Positions 17,528-26,552 of a DNA stretch of 64,000 nucleotides are shown here, one piece after another. Source of the stretch: an uncultured Tolumonas sp. (GTDB taxonomy: Bacteria > Pseudomonadota > Gammaproteobacteria > Enterobacterales > Aeromonadaceae). The position numbers and the translations under genes are program-made. The stretch is from NCBI RefSeq assembly GCF_963556105.2, contig NZ_OY829944.1, positions 874,501-938,500 of the forward strand, written 5' to 3'. Every line of letters starts with the position of its first letter. Position 1 is the stretch's first letter. The notes under the pieces are model-generated. The model saw only the letters and a program-made list of their open reading frames with translations. It ran no database searches and was not told the DNA's origin.

Positions 17528-18556
17528 TTACTGCTTGTTATTAAAACCACACTTAACCATCGCCAACGTTGTATCCAGCATACGGTTGGCAAAACCCCAT
17601 TCGTTATCGCACCAGACCAGCGTTTTGATCAAGTGTTTGCCACTGACGCGGGTTTGCGTGCCATCAACGATAGCGCTGTGCGGGTCGTGGTTAAAATCGA
17701 TCGAAACCAGCGGTAGTTCAGTGTAATCGACAATGCTGCGGAAACTACCTTTTGCTGCCCGCTGTAGCACATTATTGACGTCCAGCACGCTAACGGCATT
17801 GGTAACCGTGACGCTAAGATCAATGGCGGTGACATTGATGGTCGGCACTCGCACAGAAATCGCTTCAAAGCGATCGCAGAATTTCGGGAAGATACGCGTG
17901 ATACCAGCGGCCAGTTTAGTATCGACCGGAATGATCGACTGGCTGGCAGCACGGGTACGGCGCAGATCAGGATGATAAGCATCGATCACCTGCTGATCAT
18001 TCATCGACGCATGAATGGTGGTCACAGTGCCTGATTCAATATTAAAGGCGTCATCCAGTAACTTGATCACGGGAATAATACAGTTCGTGGTACAAGAACC
18101 ACTGGAGACGATGCGGTGTTCCGGCTGTAACTGCTGATGGTTAACACCATAAATCACGGTTGCGTCGAGATCGCTGCTGCCTGGGTGCGAAAACAACACT
18201 TTCTTGGCGCCGGAAGCTAGATGTTGTTCACCATCCGCGCGTTTGCCATAGATGCCGCTGCAATCGAGCACGATATCGACACCCAAATCTCCCCACGGCA
18301 GTTGGTTGATCTCTTTTTGATGCAACAGACGAATGGCATCATCACCGACATACAGCACGTCGCGCTCCTGACGCACGTCCCAGTCAAAACGGCCGTGTGT
18401 TGAATCATATTTCAGCAGGTGCGCCATACCTTCCGCATCTGCCAGCTCATTAATGGCGACAACTTTGATTTCGGCCCGACGCCCTGATTCATATAATGCG
18501 CGTAAGACACTTCGACCGATGCGGCCGAAACCATTGATGGCGATACGGATGGTCAT
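17528..18556 (-). CDS. epd: D-erythrose-4-phosphate dehydrogenase
   Basis: This 342-residue enzyme of the GAPDH superfamily has the Rossmann motif NGFGRIGR and catalytic Cys155 in SSGSCTTNC. The sequence pattern ([34 protein letters not shown]) is that of Epd rather than GapA. Epd oxidises erythrose-4-phosphate to 4-phosphoerythronate, the first step of the DXP-dependent pyridoxal phosphate route. In E. coli it heads an epd-pgk-fbaA operon; here no glycolytic gene follows, so it appears to stand alone. GGGAG precedes the ATG. Confidence 0.93.
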
Positions 18557-18711
18557 GCTGCTCCCTGATTATTACTCGGATGACAATGTACTAGAGTAAA
18601 TCAATGCGTAGCATGATTGAACCATCTTCGGGCATTTTCATTATGACCATGTTCGCAGACAATGGTCCGCACATCAGTTTCGCCTGCCGAAGCCATTCTT
18701 ACGGCTTTTGA

Positions 18712-19722
18712 TTACAGGTCTTGTATTAAAAATGGGTCAAAAGAAGAGAGCGCCGAAAAGTATTCATTTATACATTCCGTCATAGTGCGGGGCGAAAAAT
18801 TCAGATGCTCACGGGAAAGTGAAATATCGTAAATTTCTTTCTGATTAAAATAAAAATGTACCTGACTCTTCAGCAGTTTAGGTTCAATATTAAAATATTT
18901 ACTCAATTCAGCCAGGGTGGCGATAAAAAGTAAAACATTTTTTCCCACCCGGCGGGGTAATTTTACAGATGAATTATATTGTTGTGCTAACTGGGTGATT
19001 TCTTTGACACTAAGCCCCTGGGGGTTGGCTAATATATAACGGTGTGATGTTTTACCGGCATAACCAGATCGGGCAATGGCATCGCTGACATCATTGATAT
19101 GCACAAGATTAAAATCGAACTCTAAATCGAGCGGCAGCTCACCTTTAAAGATGGATTGCAGGAAACGTGTAGTTGGTGTGCTGTGGGAAAGATCACCGTT
19201 TATCATGGCTGAGGGTAAAACACTCACCATTTCAATATGATATTTTTCTGCTAATGACCAAGCTAACCGTTCCGTTTCTATCTTTGATTGAAAATATGGA
19301 TTGCCATAAGTATTTTCACACCATGAATTCGGGGAAATTATTTCTCCAGTGGTGTTTCTGGCTAATGTGCCAGTTGAGCTGACAAAAATAATTTTTTTTA
19401 CCGAGGCGTCATGTGCAGCATTAAAAATATTTTTTACCATATTGCTATTGGCTTGAATAATCTCTTTCTGCGAATTTTTTGACCAGTGTGAAAAATTAGC
19501 TGCCACTTGAAAAACTGTATCGGTACCATCCATGGCGGCAGACAGTGTATCTGGCTTGAGTAGATCGGCATACGTTATACTACCGGCAATATTATTATCC
19601 AGTTTGGCTTTAGTGATATTTCTGACACCGGCAGTGACTTGATAACCCAGTGCAGACAAACTCCGGGTCAGAGCAGAACCTAAGTGCCCGGAAGCACCTG
19701 TAACAAATACTTTGTTTTGCAT
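18712..19722 (-). CDS. Extended SDR-family NAD(P)-dependent reductase
   Basis: This 336-residue protein has the nucleotide-binding motif GASGHLG at residues 9-15 and the catalytic pair Tyr143/Lys147 (YFQSK). It looks like a dihydroflavonol-4-reductase-type extended SDR acting on a carbonyl group. It is the last gene of an AT-rich operon led by an AfsA-like gene, 10 bases after a HAD gene. In Streptomyces gamma-butyrolactone clusters, an SDR such as BarS1 or ScbB reduces the ketone of the butanolide side chain, so the same role is plausible. That assignment is inferred from context, not from specific residues. Confidence 0.85.
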   Translation of the reverse strand: MQNKVFVTGASGHLGSALTRSLSALGYQVTAGVRNITKAKLDNNIAGSITYADLLKPDTLSAAMDGTDTVFQVAANFSHWSKNSQKEIIQANSNMVKNIFNAAHDASVKKIIFVSSTGTLARNTTGEIISPNSWCENTYGNPYFQSKIETERLAWSLAEKYHIEMVSVLPSAMINGDLSHSTPTTRFLQSIFKGELPLDLEFDFNLVHINDVSDAIARSGYAGKTSHRYILANPQGLSVKEITQLAQQYNSSVKLPRRVGKNVLLFIATLAELSKYFNIEPKLLKSQVHFYFNQKEIYDISLSREHLNFSPRTMTECINEYFSALSSFDPFLIQDL

Positions 19723-19732
19723 GGTTTATATC

Positions 19733-20371
19733 TCAGTGTTTGTTGGCTAATAATAAAGGTGTTAATTGAGAGAGTGTGGTAATACATTGGCAGTTATAAT
19801 TTAACGTTTTGTTGAAATCATTTATTGTATAAACGTTGTTTATTAACATAACAGCATGAATGCCGATGCTTTTTGCAATACAAACAGCCATTGGGCAATC
19901 ATCGACATAGATAATATTTTCCGGTGAGATGCCTAAATCGCTAGCTATGTTTCGGAATGAATTAGAATTGATTTTTGAATTCAAATCCGTTTGTATAAAT
20001 AGATTGTTTGGAAGTTTTGATTTAAATGGAGAACTTCCGTTGCTATAATGGCGTGATGAAGAATATATTTTTATAATAAATCCAAGTTCATTCCACTTAG
20101 TTATTAAAGATTCAAATTCACTGGTGTCATGAGTTATCGTTTTTATTTTAGATAATAATAGTTCTTTCTTGTCTTCTAAACCTATCGATGACATGAAAAA
20201 ATTAATACTTTCAAATAAAGGAAATGGAACTAAAGCCTTAAATAACTCATCGAATAAAATACGATTGATGTCTTTGTATTCAGATATAAACGCGTACGTT
20301 GCATTCATAATGTCAGCAGTACTGTTCCGGCTGATCACGCCATCGAAATCCAGTAAGAGGCATTTTTTCAT
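19733..20371 (-). CDS. HAD-family phosphatase
   Basis: This 212-residue protein has the HAD nucleophile pair Asp8/Asp10 in LLLDFDGV, a Ser motif (IYSSSR) and the acidic pair Asp157/Asp158 in YVDDCP. It is probably a small-molecule phosphatase. The ATG at 20371 overlaps the stop of the preceding HAD gene as ATGA, which I prefer to a start at 20389. Codon use is strikingly AT-rich compared with genes outside 18.7-22.4 kb. In an AfsA-type pathway a phosphatase would remove the phosphate derived from dihydroxyacetone phosphate. The substrate is unproven. Confidence 0.8.
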   Translation of the reverse strand: MKKCLLLDFDGVISRNSTADIMNATYAFISEYKDINRILFDELFKALVPFPLFESINFFMSSIGLEDKKELLLSKIKTITHDTSEFESLITKWNELGFIIKIYSSSRHYSNGSSPFKSKLPNNLFIQTDLNSKINSNSFRNIASDLGISPENIIYVDDCPMAVCIAKSIGIHAVMLINNVYTINDFNKTLNYNCQCITTLSQLTPLLLANKH

Positions 20372-21042
20372 AAGGTATTCCTGAAGCATTTCCCATGGTT
20401 GTCGATAGCATGGATCATCTCAACTGAGATAGATGAAATTGAATCAACCATGTATTCCACACCGAGGTGATGCATTTCTTCTTTTTGGTAGCTAAAAGGG
20501 AAGTGGCTGGGTACACCGATAAACAGAGCATTTTCCTTTTTTGCATTTTCAGCAAAAAAAGCAACATCATCTATGAATAAAACACTCGATGGCCGAACAC
20601 CATACATGTTGGCGATTTCATTGATTCCAGGTCTGAAATCATTGGTGCATACATATTCATTAACATATTGCATGCATGGTTTTATATCGTGATGCAATTC
20701 GGATTCTGATAATCCACCGTAAAACAGAATGTCGGTATCCAGTTTCTGAATGGCTGTTAAAAAATCAATGGCCCCAGTTTCTATGCCACTTTCATGCGTG
20801 GCCATATACCGTTCTCTTTCCTGAAAATATTCACTGATAAGTTGTGTTGGAGTCAGCTTGAGGTTTAAGGCCTTGGCTATGTATGTTGCAGCCTCTTTTC
20901 TGTTTCTTGAAAAGGCATTTCGTTCTAATTCCCTGGTATATATTCCATTGTATTTTTCAATGACTTTCTTCAGCACTGGGCTATAAGTATCTTTTAGTAC
21001 AACCCCGTCAATATCAATAGCTATTAATTTAATTCTGTTCAT
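20368..21042 (-). CDS. Second HAD-family phosphatase
   Basis: This 224-residue protein has Asp10/Asp12 in AIDIDGVVL and a C-terminal FIDDVAFF acidic motif, with a helical cap in between. It differs strongly from the neighbouring HAD protein, so the pair is not a recent duplication. The ATG at 21042 is preferred to a TTG at 21048. The start lies 12 bases after the exported-protein gene and the stop is coupled to the next gene by ATGA. Tight packing suggests that both HAD proteins act in the same pathway as the AfsA-like enzyme. Confidence 0.8.
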   Translation of the reverse strand: MNRIKLIAIDIDGVVLKDTYSPVLKKVIEKYNGIYTRELERNAFSRNRKEAATYIAKALNLKLTPTQLISEYFQERERYMATHESGIETGAIDFLTAIQKLDTDILFYGGLSESELHHDIKPCMQYVNEYVCTNDFRPGINEIANMYGVRPSSVLFIDDVAFFAENAKKENALFIGVPSHFPFSYQKEEMHHLGVEYMVDSISSISVEMIHAIDNHGKCFRNTL

Positions 21043-21054
21043 GGTCAAATAATC

Positions 21055-21594
21055 TCAATGCAATGTCTGATATAACATTGAACCGCCATCTTTGGGGAAG
21101 TAATCCCCCAAATAAGGTGCCCGAGCCAGTTTGACCACATATAACATCAGAAATGTGTTTGGGGAGGTCCAGCGGCATATACCATGCCGGTATTCTTTAT
21201 TATTATCCAGAAAGCCACCGATCAAACGCACAGAACCATGGAACAAGCTTGATTTTTCATGAAACAGTGCTGCTACCTGTCTGAAGTCTTCCTCTGAGGT
21301 GCTTGCCGGAATTAAATCCTGAGCAGTATGCCAAAGAATAACCTCCTGATAGGAATTAATGCTCTTATTGTTTCTCTTTTGATATTCATCAAAATATTTG
21401 ACGATATCATTTTCGCTGAAGTTATATTCCAGCCATAACTTATCTAAATCCTCAACATCATTTGCATCAAAGTTCTCTTTGTCAAATAAAGAAAAAACAA
21501 CTTTCTTGGGGGCTTTCCCATTGAGCTGATCATAAAGTTCCCCAGCAAAAGTATGAAATGAAAACATTAATACGAGGAGGATTAAAATTCTCAT
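21055..21594 (-). CDS. Exported protein of unknown function
   Basis: This 179-residue protein has a typical Sec signal peptide (MRILILLVLMFSFHTFA, cleavage before GEL). The mature part is charged, mostly helical by composition, with a conserved-looking C-terminal stretch (HGICRWTSPNTF). I recognise no domain. The ATG overlaps the stop of the AfsA-like gene as ATGA. It is the only exported product of this otherwise cytoplasmic metabolic operon, so it may act in the periplasm on the product or its precursor. No function should be assigned. Confidence 0.75.
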   Translation of the reverse strand: MRILILLVLMFSFHTFAGELYDQLNGKAPKKVVFSLFDKENFDANDVEDLDKLWLEYNFSENDIVKYFDEYQKRNNKSINSYQEVILWHTAQDLIPASTSEEDFRQVAALFHEKSSLFHGSVRLIGGFLDNNKEYRHGICRWTSPNTFLMLYVVKLARAPYLGDYFPKDGGSMLYQTLH

Positions 21595-22337
21595 GCGGTT
21601 ATCTCCGTGCTCTCTTCAGTATCTGTTATGAAGTTGTTTATTATTTTATTCTGGTTTTTTTCATGTCTAGTCATGAATAAATTAGCCAGCCTCATTTCTT
21701 TTCTGGATAGCTCGTCTTTATCTACAGACGTAAATCTTCCTCCGGTCTTAACTACTAATTTATCTGATTGATAAAAAAATAGTTCGACAACATATTCAGA
21801 CTCTTTTTCAGTATTGGACATTTTTAATGTAATTTTTGTTTCTACAGGAAAAGCAAAAGATTGATAGTCTGCATATATATTACTTATGGCAAAAGATTGC
21901 TTTTCTTTTTTCATATAGAGCTCAGTCACTGCTGATGCCATTTGTCGGGTGGCTTCCAAAAAAATCATTCCCTGAATATGGATGCCCGTTGTGTGATCCA
22001 GTGTTAATTCATTATTATGTTGGATAATTAAATCTGAAATATAAACGTTATCGTGAACTTTGACTGGTTCGGTTATCAATGTGTTAACGTGATTTTGTTT
22101 ATGTGATGACGTCTTTCTCGCCATTGGGAGATTATTTATTAATATTCTTGCATAGTCTTTTTTACAAGTGTCGGTAACCAAGTCTCTTTGTGACTGTGTC
22201 AGCCCTTGTCCGGGTAAAAATATAATATCTTCAATACATTTTTCACCGAATAATTGATGCCAGTTTTTAAAACACACAAAGTTATCAAGCTGCTCGCAGT
22301 TAGAAAACATTTCTCCGACAACATATGTGATTTTCAT
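21591..22337 (-). CDS. AfsA-like (A-factor biosynthesis) hotdog-domain protein
   Basis: This 248-residue protein contains, around residues 108-135, the signature DHTTGIHIQGMIFLEATRQ (Asp114, His115, Gly118, Glu128, Arg131, Gln132). It matches the ExxRQ-containing hotdog domain of AfsA/ScbA/BarX enzymes. Those enzymes condense a beta-ketoacyl thioester with dihydroxyacetone phosphate, the committed step to gamma-butyrolactone signals. Actinobacterial AfsA proteins carry two hotdog repeats in about 300 residues. Here only one is clear, and residues 1-80 are of unknown type. It leads a five-gene operon (exported protein, two HAD, SDR) and is divergent from a TetR regulator. A good GGGAG site precedes the ATG. 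The family call is by motif only. Confidence 0.75.
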   Translation of the reverse strand: MKITYVVGEMFSNCEQLDNFVCFKNWHQLFGEKCIEDIIFLPGQGLTQSQRDLVTDTCKKDYARILINNLPMARKTSSHKQNHVNTLITEPVKVHDNVYISDLIIQHNNELTLDHTTGIHIQGMIFLEATRQMASAVTELYMKKEKQSFAISNIYADYQSFAFPVETKITLKMSNTEKESEYVVELFFYQSDKLVVKTGGRFTSVDKDELSRKEMRLANLFMTRHEKNQNKIINNFITDTEESTEITA

Positions 22338-22358
22338 TACAGCTCCCGTTTATTAATT

Positions 22359-22387
22359 ATTCTGTGCACAGTGCCATTAGATTCCAA
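22359..22387 (-). promoter_or_regulatory. Putative promoter of the AfsA-like operon
   Basis: On the minus strand a TTGGAA box (22382-22387) is separated by 17 bases from CAGAAT (22359-22364), about 22 bases before the start codon. The palindrome CTGTGCACAG (22362-22371) overlaps the -10 box and spacer and could be an operator. Confidence 0.4.
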
Positions 22388-22389
22388 AA

Positions 22390-22412
22390 ATAAGTTACTC
22401 TTGGTATCTTAT
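22390..22412. promoter_or_regulatory. 23-bp inverted repeat, candidate TetR operator
   Basis: ATAAGTTAC (22390-22398) and GTATCTTAT (22404-22412) are inverted copies with one mismatch around a 5-base spacer. Size and layout suit a TetR-family dimer. The site sits immediately upstream of the putative operon promoter, in the space shared with the divergent TetR gene. The rest of 22338-22625 has no other feature that I can support. Confidence 0.5.
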
Positions 22413-22625
22413 TCTGTCAATAGCTCCAAATGAACTATTCGTTACCGCTTCGTTTCAATATAGAGAACTTCAGAAAAATCGCTCTGACAGTGCGGTATTC
22501 CATTTATAGTGGTATTTGATGCGGATTCAGTGTGGAAAATTAGTGTAGTTTTTGACGCGACCAGAAGCGATTGGCTAGTCATTGTTGATACTATGACGTC
22601 AATGTTTAATTTAAGATCGTTACCT

Positions 22626-23240
22626 ATGCGAAAATATCAACGTGCCCGCAGTCACGAAGAAAAAAACGAACGGCTGAGCAGTATCTTGTCGGCAGCCGAA
22701 AGTATGTTTGCAGAAAATGTGTATGAGGCGTGCAATCTGAATGTAATCGCCGCCGCCGTTGGTATCACTAAAACGGCGCTTTACCGTTATTTCAGAAGCA
22801 AAGAATTGATTTTTCTGGAGATCTATAAACACCAGTTAGCGGAGATTGTCCCGTCTCTGCAGATTTGTTTACAGATACAGGATGCGGCTGGCTTGTCTGC
22901 ATTGCTGTCTTCACGCCCATTGTTTTGCAGGCTCAGCGCAATTTTAACGACTGTGCTTGAACGTCCACTCTCAGTGGCAGAGGCGAGATCGTTCAAATTA
23001 ACCGTGTTGCAGTTACTCGAACCTTGTGTGATCACGCTGGTCAGTGAACACGGTTTCACACCGGATGCGGCCGCTATGTGGCTAATGCAACTTTTAGTGG
23101 CGGTGGTGGGATGCTGGCATGTCTGTCACACATCGCCAATGATGAATGAGGCACTGGCAATTCCTGAACTGGCCAGTTTTCAGTTAAATTTTGATGAGAT
23201 GCTGCAGCAGCATATAACCATGATGATGCAGGGGCATTGA
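22626..23240 (+). CDS. TetR-family transcriptional regulator
   Basis: This 204-residue protein has an N-terminal TetR DNA-binding domain; the helix-turn-helix lies near residues 36-57 (LNVIAAAVGITKTALYRYF). The C-terminal half is a hydrophobic helical ligand and dimer domain. I take ATG 22626 because the 39 residues that an upstream start would add do not resemble TetR proteins, although the ribosome site is weak. It is divergent from the AfsA-like operon. In Streptomyces, AfsA-type enzymes are typically paired with a TetR-type butyrolactone receptor (ArpA, ScbR, BarA), so this is a candidate receptor/repressor of the operon. Ligand identity is inference. Confidence 0.88.
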   Translation: MRKYQRARSHEEKNERLSSILSAAESMFAENVYEACNLNVIAAAVGITKTALYRYFRSKELIFLEIYKHQLAEIVPSLQICLQIQDAAGLSALLSSRPLFCRLSAILTTVLERPLSVAEARSFKLTVLQLLEPCVITLVSEHGFTPDAAAMWLMQLLVAVVGCWHVCHTSPMMNEALAIPELASFQLNFDEMLQQHITMMMQGH

Positions 23241-23285
23241 TGCCCCTTTTTCAACTGACTTCCGGGTGGTCTATCTGTGTGGAAT

Positions 23286-24158
23286 TTATCCGCCGAATGC
23301 AACTTCTGGTAAACCAGCAACATCCATCGGAATGGCCAATACCGCACCTTCCAGCGGATGTGCGGCCAGATGTTCTGCCGACATACCTTGGCTGGCACTG
23401 GTGACATACAAGGTTTTCAGATCCGGGCCACCGAAGCAGGGCATGGTTGGATTGGTGACGGGTAAGGCAATATCGCGCAGTAATTCACCTTGTGGGCTAA
23501 TACACAGCACGCGGCTACCGGCATATTGCGCTGACCAGTAATTGCCTTCGCTATCAACAGTGGCGCCATCAGGGCGCCCCATGCCTTCCGGTACATGGAA
23601 AAACAGCTGTTGGTTACTGACTTCACCTGTTTCCGGATCGTAATCGCAGCGGTAGATATTGCGGTTTTGAATCGGGGTATCTGACCAGTAGAGTGTTTTG
23701 CCGTCCGGGCTGAAGGCCATGCCGTTACAAGTCCAGCTTTTGCCGATCAGCGGACGCACACTCAAATCAGGGCATAACTGATAAAACGTACCAAACGATT
23801 CATCTTTACGGGCATTCATGGTGCCGGCAATAAAGCGACCTTTCGGGTCGCAGCGGCCATCATTAAAGCGTTGCCAGGGTTTATCGGCTTCAGGGTCAAC
23901 AATGGGTGTTAAGGTCGGGTTGCTGACGTCATCAATAAAATGAAAGCCCGATTGCAGGGCGACTAATAAGCCCCCTTTTTCACGCCAAATAAAACAGCCT
24001 ATCTCTTCTTGCAGCTGAATGACACTGTGCTGCCCGCTGGCAGGGTGATGACGGTGGATCTGGTGTTTTGTAATATCGACCCACCACAAAGTTTGTGTTT
24101 CCGCATGCCAGCGAGGGCATTCACCTAATTGATCGCGTTGAGCTGATAGTGCCTGCAT
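23286..24158 (-). CDS. SMP-30/gluconolactonase-family lactonase
   Basis: This 290-residue six-bladed beta-propeller has the metal-site regions ECPRW (Glu), FNDGRCDPKGRF (Asn/Asp) and DGATVDSEGNYW (Asp). The family hydrolyses sugar lactones and some other lactones. The ATG at 24158 follows GGAGAGA and fits the family N-terminus; a longer start at 24212 is unlikely. It is convergent with the TetR gene. The usual role would be gluconolactone or pentonolactone hydrolysis. Turnover of a lactone made by the adjacent cassette is a possible but unsupported alternative. Confidence 0.88.
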   Translation of the reverse strand: MQALSAQRDQLGECPRWHAETQTLWWVDITKHQIHRHHPASGQHSVIQLQEEIGCFIWREKGGLLVALQSGFHFIDDVSNPTLTPIVDPEADKPWQRFNDGRCDPKGRFIAGTMNARKDESFGTFYQLCPDLSVRPLIGKSWTCNGMAFSPDGKTLYWSDTPIQNRNIYRCDYDPETGEVSNQQLFFHVPEGMGRPDGATVDSEGNYWSAQYAGSRVLCISPQGELLRDIALPVTNPTMPCFGGPDLKTLYVTSASQGMSAEHLAAHPLEGAVLAIPMDVAGLPEVAFGG

Positions 24159-24461
24159 GATGTTCTCTCCGAGAATGACTAAACGCAGATTAACGGATGT
24201 TTCCGGTAACATAAAATGTAACCGGTTTTATTGTGATCTATGTCTACCTTCGAGTTTGAGTAACACTATGCTCTCTGCTATTTTTTTACATTGCGCGGCA
24301 AAAAATAAATTCGTATAGATTGTAGATAGTTAGATAATAAGCTTAAATCTCAGTTAGATATAATCGGGGTGAGTTTATTCATAGCACGGAGTCCCCACCC
24401 GTCATGGTTCCTGGTGTTGCTAATGGTGGCAAACCTCTGACTATATGAGCGAGTTCTCCTT
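24159..24461. other. Intergenic region without recognised gene
   Basis: This 303-base space between divergent genes should hold both promoters. The part from 24290 to 24370 is very AT-rich. A GGGG/CCCC pairing near 24368-24396 could form a leader hairpin. A GGCAAACC string near 24427 recalls part of the GEMM cyclic-di-GMP riboswitch, but the rest of that motif is absent. I support no specific element. Confidence 0.5.
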
Positions 24462-26552
24462 ATGCCGTATGAGTTGAGTCAAGGCGTTGATCTGTTAAAT
24501 GAAACAGAAACTTTCTTACAAACGCTTTTAGAAACCATCCCAGACATACTATTTGTGTTTGATGAAGAGTGTCGCTATTTGTGCGTGCTGTCGTCGGAAC
24601 ACAACATCAGCCAAATGAAAGCCTCTCACTTTGTCGGTCATCGGATTCATGACCTCTGGCCAACAGAGTTAGCCGATCGTTTCTATCACACTATTCGAGA
24701 AACACTGCGCACAGAGCAACCACAAGCACTGGAATATGAACGTGACACCGCGATGGGGTTGCGTTGGTTTGAAGGGCGCACACAACCCTTACCGCAATCA
24801 TTGTATGGTCGTAAGGCCGTTGTTTTTCTGGCGCGTGATATCACCGAACGCAAATTGGCTGAAATTGCCCGGACTAAATCGGAATCACAGCTTAATTCTC
24901 TGTATGAACTAGGGATTGTCGGCTTTGCGTTCAGTCTGACCGGAAAACAGTGGATCCGCGTTAACAGTTATTTGTGTGACTTGCTGGAGTTTTCAGAAGC
25001 TGAATTATTAGGCATGACTTGGGCAGAATTTACGCATCCTGATGATTTAAAGCATAATGTCTTTGAATACGAGCAAATGCTGGCTAACGAAACTAATGGT
25101 TATACGTTAGAAAAACGGTATATCAGCAAAAGCGGTAAAGAGATCCCTGTTCGCGTCGTGGTGCGTTGTGCCCGTCATCAAGATGGAACGATTGAATATG
25201 TCACCACGATGGTGGAAGACATCAGCGAGCGTCGGAAAAACGAAGCCGAGATCCGCCAGTTGGCATTTTATGATTCGCTAACCGGGTTACCCAATCGACG
25301 TCATTTTAATAATCGTTTACGGCAGGCTTTATCTGCCAGTGCTTTGCATAAACGAATCGGGGCGTTGTTTTTTATTGATCTCGATAACTTTAAAAATCTG
25401 AATGATACCTTGGGGCATGAAAAAGGTGATGGATTACTCACATTAGTGGCGAACCGTTTATCCGGTTGCTTATCACAAAGCGATATGGTGGCTCGGCAAG
25501 GTGGCGATGAATTTGTCGTCATACTGGAAGAGATCGGTAACAACACACGGGAAGCCATAACGCAATGTCAGCACATTGGTGAGCGTTTGCTGGATGTGCT
25601 GTGTCAGCCTTATTTCATCGATGGTTTTGAACATAACACCACGGCCAGTATCGGCATCACACTGTTTGATGGACACCCGGAAAAGAGCGATGAATTATTG
25701 AAACGGGCAGATATTGCGATGTATCAGGCGAAAGCGGCCGGTCGTAATACCTTTTGTTTCTTTGATAAAGAGATGCAGGACAAAGTTTCGCATCGGGCGG
25801 CATTAAGTGCTGATTTATTCGTGGGTATACGTGAAGAGCAGTTTCGTTTGTTTTATCAACCGCAGGTTGAACATTCTGGTCGGGTTATCGGAGTAGAAGC
25901 GCTGATCCGTTGGCAACATCCAGACCGGGGCATGGTTTCGCCAGCCGAGTTTATTCCTATGGCGGAAGAAAGCGGTGCGATCCTGACGCTGGGTCATTGG
26001 GTATTAAAAACCGCCTGTCAGCAATTGGCGGTTTGGGCGACTAAACCGGATTATGCACATCTGACGATTGCCGTGAATGTCAGTGCCCGTCAGTTTTACC
26101 AGTCTGATTTTGTGGAAAAAGTACTGATGGCATTAGAAGAAACGGGTGCAGATCCGCGCTTGTTAAAATTAGAGCTGACAGAAAGTATGTTGCTGCAAGA
26201 TGTTGAAGATATCATCACCAAAATGACATTACTGAAACGCATTGGGGTTGGGTTCTCGCTGGATGATTTTGGTACGGGTTACTCCTCGCTTTCCTACTTA
26301 AAACGTTTACCGTTGGATCAGCTTAAGATCGACCAATCTTTTGTGCGTGATTTGTTAACCGATGCCAACGATGATGCGATTGCCCGGACGATTGTGGCAT
26401 TAGCGGAAAGTATGGGCTTGGCGGTTATTGCCGAAGGGGTGGAAACGCAAGAGCAGCGCGATTGTCTGGCGGGGCATGGTTGTTATACCTATCAAGGTTA
26501 TTTGTTTGGCCGACCGGCTCCAGCTGACGAGCTAAAATTATCCTGTTCGTAA
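24462..26552 (+). CDS. PAS-PAS-GGDEF-EAL cyclic-di-GMP signalling protein
   Basis: This 696-residue soluble protein has two PAS domains (about 15-135 and 140-262), a GGDEF domain (intact GGDEF at AARQGGDEF-like position in VARQGGDEFVV), and a C-terminal EAL domain (about 440-690). The EAL catalytic set appears complete: EALIRWQHP, VNVSARQF, ELTES, DDFGTGYSSL, LKIDQSF, AEGVET. The inhibitory RxxD site before GGDEF is missing (SQSD instead). It may be bifunctional, with phosphodiesterase activity likely. There is no membrane segment, so the PAS domains presumably sense a cytoplasmic cue such as redox or a bound cofactor. It stands alone. Confidence 0.93.
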   Translation: MPYELSQGVDLLNETETFLQTLLETIPDILFVFDEECRYLCVLSSEHNISQMKASHFVGHRIHDLWPTELADRFYHTIRETLRTEQPQALEYERDTAMGLRWFEGRTQPLPQSLYGRKAVVFLARDITERKLAEIARTKSESQLNSLYELGIVGFAFSLTGKQWIRVNSYLCDLLEFSEAELLGMTWAEFTHPDDLKHNVFEYEQMLANETNGYTLEKRYISKSGKEIPVRVVVRCARHQDGTIEYVTTMVEDISERRKNEAEIRQLAFYDSLTGLPNRRHFNNRLRQALSASALHKRIGALFFIDLDNFKNLNDTLGHEKGDGLLTLVANRLSGCLSQSDMVARQGGDEFVVILEEIGNNTREAITQCQHIGERLLDVLCQPYFIDGFEHNTTASIGITLFDGHPEKSDELLKRADIAMYQAKAAGRNTFCFFDKEMQDKVSHRAALSADLFVGIREEQFRLFYQPQVEHSGRVIGVEALIRWQHPDRGMVSPAEFIPMAEESGAILTLGHWVLKTACQQLAVWATKPDYAHLTIAVNVSARQFYQSDFVEKVLMALEETGADPRLLKLELTESMLLQDVEDIITKMTLLKRIGVGFSLDDFGTGYSSLSYLKRLPLDQLKIDQSFVRDLLTDANDDAIARTIVALAESMGLAVIAEGVETQEQRDCLAGHGCYTYQGYLFGRPAPADELKLSCS

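Follow-up and report, generated by a model that had tools for sequence, protein, structure and literature searches.

A TetR-linked AfsA-family gene cassette in Tolumonas shares a hydrolase family with actinobacterial AfsA loci

What does an AfsA-family operon placed next to a TetR-family regulator gene make in a Gram-negative bacterium, and is the product sensed by that regulator? This question is raised by a locus (18712-23240) in a 64,000-nucleotide stretch, hereafter the window, of the 4.0 Mb genome of an uncultured Tolumonas sp. (Aeromonadaceae; contig NZ_OY829944.1), in which five minus-strand genes, named here AFSA, EXP, HAD1, HAD2 and SDR, lie divergent from a TetR gene. The original prediction had read these genes as a system for the synthesis and sensing of a butyrolactone- or butenolide-like signal. 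We conclude that the locus is, on balance, probably a small cassette of biosynthetic and regulatory genes whose product is a metabolite of the butenolide or gamma-butyrolactone type. The earlier reading is thus upheld in part: the AfsA family assignment, the conserved neighbourhood and a link of HAD1 to actinobacterial AfsA loci speak for it, while the proposed receptor family and the ScbA/BarX type of the synthase did not stand. Neither of the outcomes named beforehand as refuting it, a hotdog protein closer to FabZ/FabA or thioesterase families than to AfsA, or genes that do not co-occur elsewhere, was observed. Synthesis of such a compound by the cassette is well supported, and we infer that TetR senses the product.

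The family of the presumed synthase was determined by profile and fold searches. AFSA matches the Pfam family AfsA (PF03756) with 39.5 bits against a gathering cut-off of 24, and in the same scan (E up to 1) no FabA/FabZ or thioesterase family was listed; the E-A-T-R-Q signature that had been claimed for the protein was located in it (Table 1). Named relatives were collected by scanning for the pattern GM..EA.RQ, which gave at least 37 named loci, a few of them outside Proteobacteria. Among the matches listed, 37/37 aligned relatives match AfsA, two of them also FabA, weakly; the invariance of GM..EA.RQ in their alignment (A4) is partly due to selection, this stretch being the search pattern itself. 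In fold searches with the predicted AFSA model, the matches were taken up by the hotdog domain. The nearest AfsA branch outside Aeromonadaceae, again among the matches listed, is formed by the proteins of loci L019 and L020 (98/99 support).

The strongest new evidence is a connection across phyla, provided by HAD1. It is 34% identical over 216 amino acids (E 2.6e-38) to a gene at locus L133 that adjoins an actinobacterial AfsA gene exceeding the ScbA/BarX cut-off. A profile including this relative detected 13 HAD1 loci in 12 of 394 genomes of one actinobacterial class, and at 12 of the 13 loci an AfsA gene lies 32-2640 bases from HAD1 (L159 is the HAD1 locus without a nearby AfsA gene). Eleven of these 12 AfsA genes score 214-351 bits with a local ScbA-type profile, which was built from 13 NF041195 matches, nine of them above the curated cut-off, and to which two of the eleven, L133 and L160, themselves contributed; the remaining one, at L161, belongs to the one-hotdog type and is separated by 32 bases from HAD1, which has the same orientation. 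As ScbA-type matches occur in only 8/60 genomes, we judge from these frequencies, rather than from a statistic, that the 12/13 association is far beyond chance. All four TetR neighbours examined at HAD1 loci score 195-219 bits with the ScbR model, above its cut-off of 150, and 10/13 loci contain a gene of one cluster whose one examined member is a short-chain dehydrogenase. The original prediction had described the phosphatases and the exported protein of the cassette as not known from actinobacterial clusters; this does not apply to HAD1, a HAD2-like gene was seen only at L154 (phmmer E 1.5e-10, downstream of HAD1), and for EXP the statement stands, no relative having been found at the actinobacterial loci searched. 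The placement of HAD1 near actinobacterial AfsA and ScbR-type genes strengthens the butyrolactone reading. A separate observation concerns L133:4800-6218 (minus strand), where the ScbR-type regulator and HAD1 share one open frame of 472 amino acids, which is either a real fusion or a frameshift.

In order to follow the cassette through its own family, we searched 75 Aeromonadaceae genomes and found AFSA in four of them and EXP in the same four. Within the genus the six-gene neighbourhood is conserved, all six genes being present in 3/11 genomes (G000, which holds the window, G338 and G342) with the five operon genes in the same order; a close TetR orthologue (86-94% identity) occurs in 4/11, the window itself included. 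The five operon genes have 79-93% protein identity to their G342 and G338 counterparts and the changes fall mostly at third codon positions, which indicates that these genes are real and under selection. Each of the three full copies is flanked by epd on one side and by a gluconolactonase-like (SGL) gene on the other, and the same locus is found in Tolumonas sp. STCSWMC_31, with an AFSA 88% identical. The epd-SGL interval measures only about 103-118 bases in G343, G346 and G344 (the G344 contig covers the SGL gene only in part) and contains neither TetR nor operon, and in G337 and G339 the site is taken by another gene, 341 and 338 amino acids long, respectively. In G345 TetR is kept and is followed by the first AFSA codons fused directly to the end of SDR; in this draft genome, which is 87% complete, an internal deletion appears to have removed the operon. 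Altogether the site was read in 9/11 genus genomes, G340 and G341 having yielded no epd locus, and at 8/9 of these sites TetR and the operon either occur together or are missing together. The linkage of a synthase to reductase and regulator genes by which butyrolactone clusters are recognised is thus found in the operon divergent from TetR. In G336, from another genus of the family, AFSA is split by a contig break and its continuation is directly followed by HAD1.

The remaining operon genes were assigned to families where profiles allowed it. HAD1 scores 27.2 bits with Pfam Hydrolase (cut-off 26.4) and HAD2 22.4 bits with HAD_2, just below the cut-off of 23.8; the DxD motif with its nucleophile Asp is present in both, as DID and DFD. 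SDR scores 89.7 bits with Pfam Epimerase, and its nearest NCBIfam models (HpnA, SdmB, 2-alkyl-3-oxoalkanoate reductase) all stay below their cut-offs. EXP has a single Pfam match, below the cut-off of that family, and its start resembles a signal peptide, by eye, in three genomes; outside the four Aeromonadaceae genomes no match to it was found among 369 genomes of the class, plasmids or phages, its sole match among PDB sequences is at E 0.4, and its fold prediction is low (pLDDT 51.5, from a two-row alignment). In samples of 369 Gammaproteobacteria and 329 genomes of the phylum, HAD1 was found in the window's own genome only (1/369 and 1/329); these samples missed three HAD1 genomes recovered through the search of the family, namely G338, G342 and G336.

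As for the layout of the locus, each of the six genes was confirmed where it had been predicted (Table 1), and the ATGA overlaps and tiny gaps that had been described were found: AFSA and EXP overlap by 4 bases, EXP and HAD1 are 6 bases apart, HAD1 and HAD2 overlap by 22 bases when the first start is used, and 10 bases separate HAD2 from SDR. With the in-frame ATG at 20371 the HAD1/HAD2 overlap would shrink to a 4-base ATGA, and the start of HAD1 may be the ATG at 21042 instead of the first start, TTG 21048. For TetR, ATG 22626 is probably the start rather than GTG 22509, the open frame of the G342 copy having no earlier start codon; in G338 and G345 the frame is longer, at 227 amino acids. 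The G+C content is 0.364 in the operon, 0.476 in TetR and 0.475 in the window. Consensus promoters in 18400-23400 occur at shuffle level (14, mean of shuffles 16.7), as do consensus terminators (4 against 3.3), and an Rfam scan of 18000-24500 returned nothing above gathering scores. A 25-base palindrome in the intergenic region is almost unchanged across four genus genomes and has no second copy in the window.

Table 1. Features of the Tolumonas AfsA-family cassette; positions are those of the window.
Feature	Position	Strand	Description	Basis
Whole cassette	18571..23283	.	Unmatched at the same site in G343, G346 and G344	Syntenic regions aligned to the window with blastn
SDR	18712..19722	-	Extended short-chain dehydrogenase of the NAD-dependent epimerase family; candidate for the reductase step	Pfam Epimerase
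HAD2	19733..20389	-	Second HAD-superfamily hydrolase, DFD motif intact	Pfam HAD_2, below cut-off
HAD1	20368..21048	-	HAD-superfamily hydrolase with an intact DID motif; candidate for dephosphorylating the AfsA product	Pfam Hydrolase
EXP	21055..21594	-	179 amino acids, signal-peptide-like N-terminus (by eye), no known family	
AFSA	21591..22337	-	N-terminal alpha/beta part (~1-66) and one hotdog domain (~70-208), EATRQ at 128-132	
Candidate operator	22389..22413	.	Imperfect inverted repeat: 10-base arms, one mismatch, 5-base spacer	
TetR-family regulator	22626..23240	+	204 amino acids; longer reading from GTG 22509	Pfam TetR_N and TetR_C_34

The flanks of the cassette were also inspected. A role as lactonase partner was weighed for the SGL gene (gluconolactonase/SMP-30-like, 23286-24212) and dropped, because the gene also occurs at sites that lack the cassette. 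The genes found in place of the cassette in G337 and G339 (L108:7192-8217 and L109:8582-9598) look membrane-protein-like by eye, and the position beside epd may be an insertion hotspot. In G342 and G346 (L054:12458-18018 and L107:10921-16481) epd is followed by a block of five genes that look, by eye, like those for a lipoprotein, two permeases and two ATP-binding proteins; its start is also seen in G344 (L110:1940-4390), and the block is absent there in the window.

How, then, does the cassette compare with known systems? An AfsA-family synthase, a dehydrogenase and a TetR-family gene are common to it and to actinobacterial gamma-butyrolactone clusters, some loci of which also have the HAD1 family. 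The papers cited below by PMC number are cited from the accessible parts of their texts. In the Streptomyces butenolide pathways for SRB and SAB (SrrX/SrrP, SabA/SabP) an AfsA-family synthase acts alongside a dehydrogenase and a phosphatase of the pathway (PMC12301235, PMC7756379), a set of enzymes like that proposed for the Tolumonas cassette, SrrP and SabP being likened to HAD1 by description only, not by sequence; in S. venezuelae the NAD-epimerase/dehydratase-type enzyme JadW2 is essential for butyrolactones (PMC5735094). The AfsA-like domain of gladiostatin/gladiofungin biosynthesis in Burkholderia gladioli condenses 3-ketothioesters with dihydroxyacetone phosphate in vitro (PMC7756379), and the gladiofungin cluster carries a HAD family phosphatase gene, glaP, and a polyketide synthase that terminates in the AfsA domain (PMC10574677). 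That system differs in that its AfsA is a release domain of the polyketide synthase and its product an antibiotic, and its phosphatases are likened to HAD1 by description only. In Chromobacterium subtsugae, an AfsA-related hotdog gene adjoins a HAD hydrolase gene, as in Tolumonas, in an operon reported to be regulated by quorum sensing; it differs in its MarR regulator, its efflux genes and a hydrolase annotated as HAD-IB (PMC12114271). The accessible part of that paper describes such synthesis as not reported in C. subtsugae and cites Creamer et al. 2021 for cluster homologues in 12 phyla. AfsA genes and clusters in Gram-negatives, and a HAD family phosphatase in a cluster with an AfsA domain, are therefore already in print; the part for which the literature searched gave no report is the link that the HAD1 family forms across phyla. 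With most subscription papers outside its scope, that search returned neither this cassette nor the HAD1 family as such, no paper linking Tolumonas to butyrolactone, and nothing on AfsA with a phosphorylated butenolide in Proteobacteria.

In order to place the cassette among other AfsA loci, we compared the neighbours of the AfsA gene in 30 of the listed 37 named loci, the seven others being dropped. Among the matches listed, 20/30 loci carry, no more than six genes from AfsA, a HAD hydrolase belonging to a single cluster. We call this cluster HAD-IB because the like-placed R. pomeroyi and C. subtsugae genes are annotated as such and one of its members matches Pfam HAD (PF12710). HAD1 and HAD2 (Tolumonas locus L017) did not join it (phmmer E 1e-8), and the HAD-IB partner typical of Ruegeria- and Chromobacterium-type loci is accordingly not found in the cassette. 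Other arrangements recur near AfsA. At L009, L019 and L020, genes for a FAD monooxygenase and for an exporter of the MMPL type follow AfsA; these assignments come from Pfam for L009 and, for L019 and L020, whose genes fall in the same clusters, from likeness to L009 by eye. Genes of clusters 4, 6, 20 and 11 lie in the same order downstream of AfsA in L046, L048 and L052 (Moritella, Thalassomonas, Pseudomonas fluvialis). Clusters 3 and 5 recur near AfsA in 13/30 and 9/30 loci, among the matches listed, and two genes that by eye resemble them (L010:11263-12090 and L012:7199-7810) have no Pfam match at E 0.01.

Several results weigh against a butenolide or butyrolactone cassette of the kind originally predicted. 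Unlike in actinobacterial clusters, AFSA has one hotdog (~70-208, predicted model) and one E-x-x-R-Q-type motif, scores 15.4 of the 200 bits required by the ScbA/BarX model NF041195, and forms a branch apart from seven ScbA-type rows (100/99 support, several of these rows being long-branched). The two hotdogs of ScbA/BarX synthases, taken as two E-x-x-R-Q-type motifs, are thus not seen in AFSA; in its simple spelling the motif occurs twice in ten of 13 ScbA-type proteins, once in one and not at all in two. The claim of a ScbA/BarX-like synthase consequently gives way to a separate, one-hotdog branch. Likewise, TetR reaches 33.4 of 150 bits with the ScbR model, over the helix-turn-helix part only, so the regulator is not of the ScbR/ArpA family of butanolide receptors to which it had been compared. 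The palindrome was equalled in 34/500 shuffles of the 288-base region and is not significant, which leaves it a weak operator candidate, and the intact TetR that G345 retains without the operon suggests that TetR may have other targets. For SDR, no sequence relative was found at the actinobacterial loci searched, and the G336 relative of EXP (43-47%) is located away from AFSA. With regard to HAD1, only two of nine ScbA-type loci above cut-off carry it, both in genome G732 (eight of the nine were searched, L133 being the one with HAD1, and the ninth is the AfsA locus of L160). Moreover, Asn replaces the nucleophile Asp (NxD; NIDG) in 11/13 actinobacterial HAD1 copies (L133, L150-L159), ten of which lie near AfsA genes, so that a phosphatase role of the family is not secure; DxD is kept in the Aeromonadaceae copies, L160 and L161. 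This DxD/NxD split is a puzzle in itself.

Could the same enzymes produce a diffusible antimicrobial or toxic lactone instead of a signal, with TetR governing production or self-protection? This is the main competing reading. Diffusible killing and immunity in Ruegeria pomeroyi DSS-3 depend on genes of the afsA cluster, and afsA is needed to express most of its own cluster (PMC7426152); the AfsA of this locus (L105) is 35.8% identical to AFSA over 73% of AFSA, and the proteins of Ruegeria sp. EL01 and Shimia marina (L021, L022), listed as homologue carriers in the same paper, fall in the one-hotdog group. The cluster resembles that of Tolumonas in its Gram-negative host and in its HAD hydrolase, and its authors think it horizontally acquired (PMC7426152). 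Its MFS transporter, aldo/keto reductase and LysR regulators are, however, not in the Tolumonas cassette, its hydrolase is of another kind (HAD-IB by annotation), no TetR is among its 14 listed features, and EXP and HAD1 have no match there. Gene content cannot decide between signal and antimicrobial, and the signal role as originally put forward is not sustained, no evidence separating it from the antimicrobial role reported for the cluster of this Gram-negative relative; we nevertheless consider the antimicrobial version rather unlikely.

Hotdog enzymes have a common fold, and a reading in which the operon is metabolic and unrelated, its hotdog protein acting as a thioesterase or dehydratase, was also considered. 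It appears very unlikely, given that profiles list AfsA and not FabA for AFSA and that the HAD1-AfsA association spans phyla. In a further alternative, the product of the AfsA-like enzyme would be a lipid of the membrane or envelope or a furan-type metabolite, on which EXP would act in the periplasm, and TetR would sense a fatty-acid intermediate. The signal-peptide-like start of EXP would fit this, as would the nearest outside AfsA branch (L019, L020), whose two downstream genes have a FAD monooxygenase and an MMPL-type exporter as L009 counterparts. The Tolumonas cassette is nonetheless without an exporter, the G336 relative of EXP has no signal-like start and stands apart from AFSA, and HAD1 connects the cassette to AfsA/ScbR-type loci; we regard the lipid or furan product as quite unlikely.

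For the preferred butenolide or butyrolactone cassette a course of reactions can be proposed, all steps of which we infer from family knowledge and from PMC7756379, PMC12301235 and PMC5735094. AFSA would join a beta-ketoacyl thioester from fatty acid synthesis to dihydroxyacetone phosphate, giving a phosphorylated butenolide, from which HAD1, possibly together with HAD2, would remove the phosphate. SDR would then reduce a keto group or the ring double bond, and the neutral lactone would leave the cell by diffusion. Binding of the lactone or of a precursor by the divergent TetR would derepress the operon, and EXP may be a periplasmic accessory.

More tentatively, the locus might be a self-contained gammaproteobacterial lactone switch assembled independently of Streptomyces, made of a one-hotdog AfsA, a TetR outside the ScbR family, a periplasmic partner, and HAD1 as a pathway enzyme in both phyla; this wider proposal is possible but doubtful. 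If it is true, HAD1 would be a candidate for dedicated dephosphorylation, a step of butyrolactone synthesis that the accessible part of PMC5735094 ascribes to a phosphatase thought to be non-specific. The presence of the HAD1 family near AfsA at 12/13 actinobacterial loci, and beside it again in Aeromonadaceae, makes it a candidate pathway enzyme that can be tested directly and, if TetR senses the product, the cassette would represent a compact Gram-negative lactone switch outside the acyl-homoserine-lactone systems.

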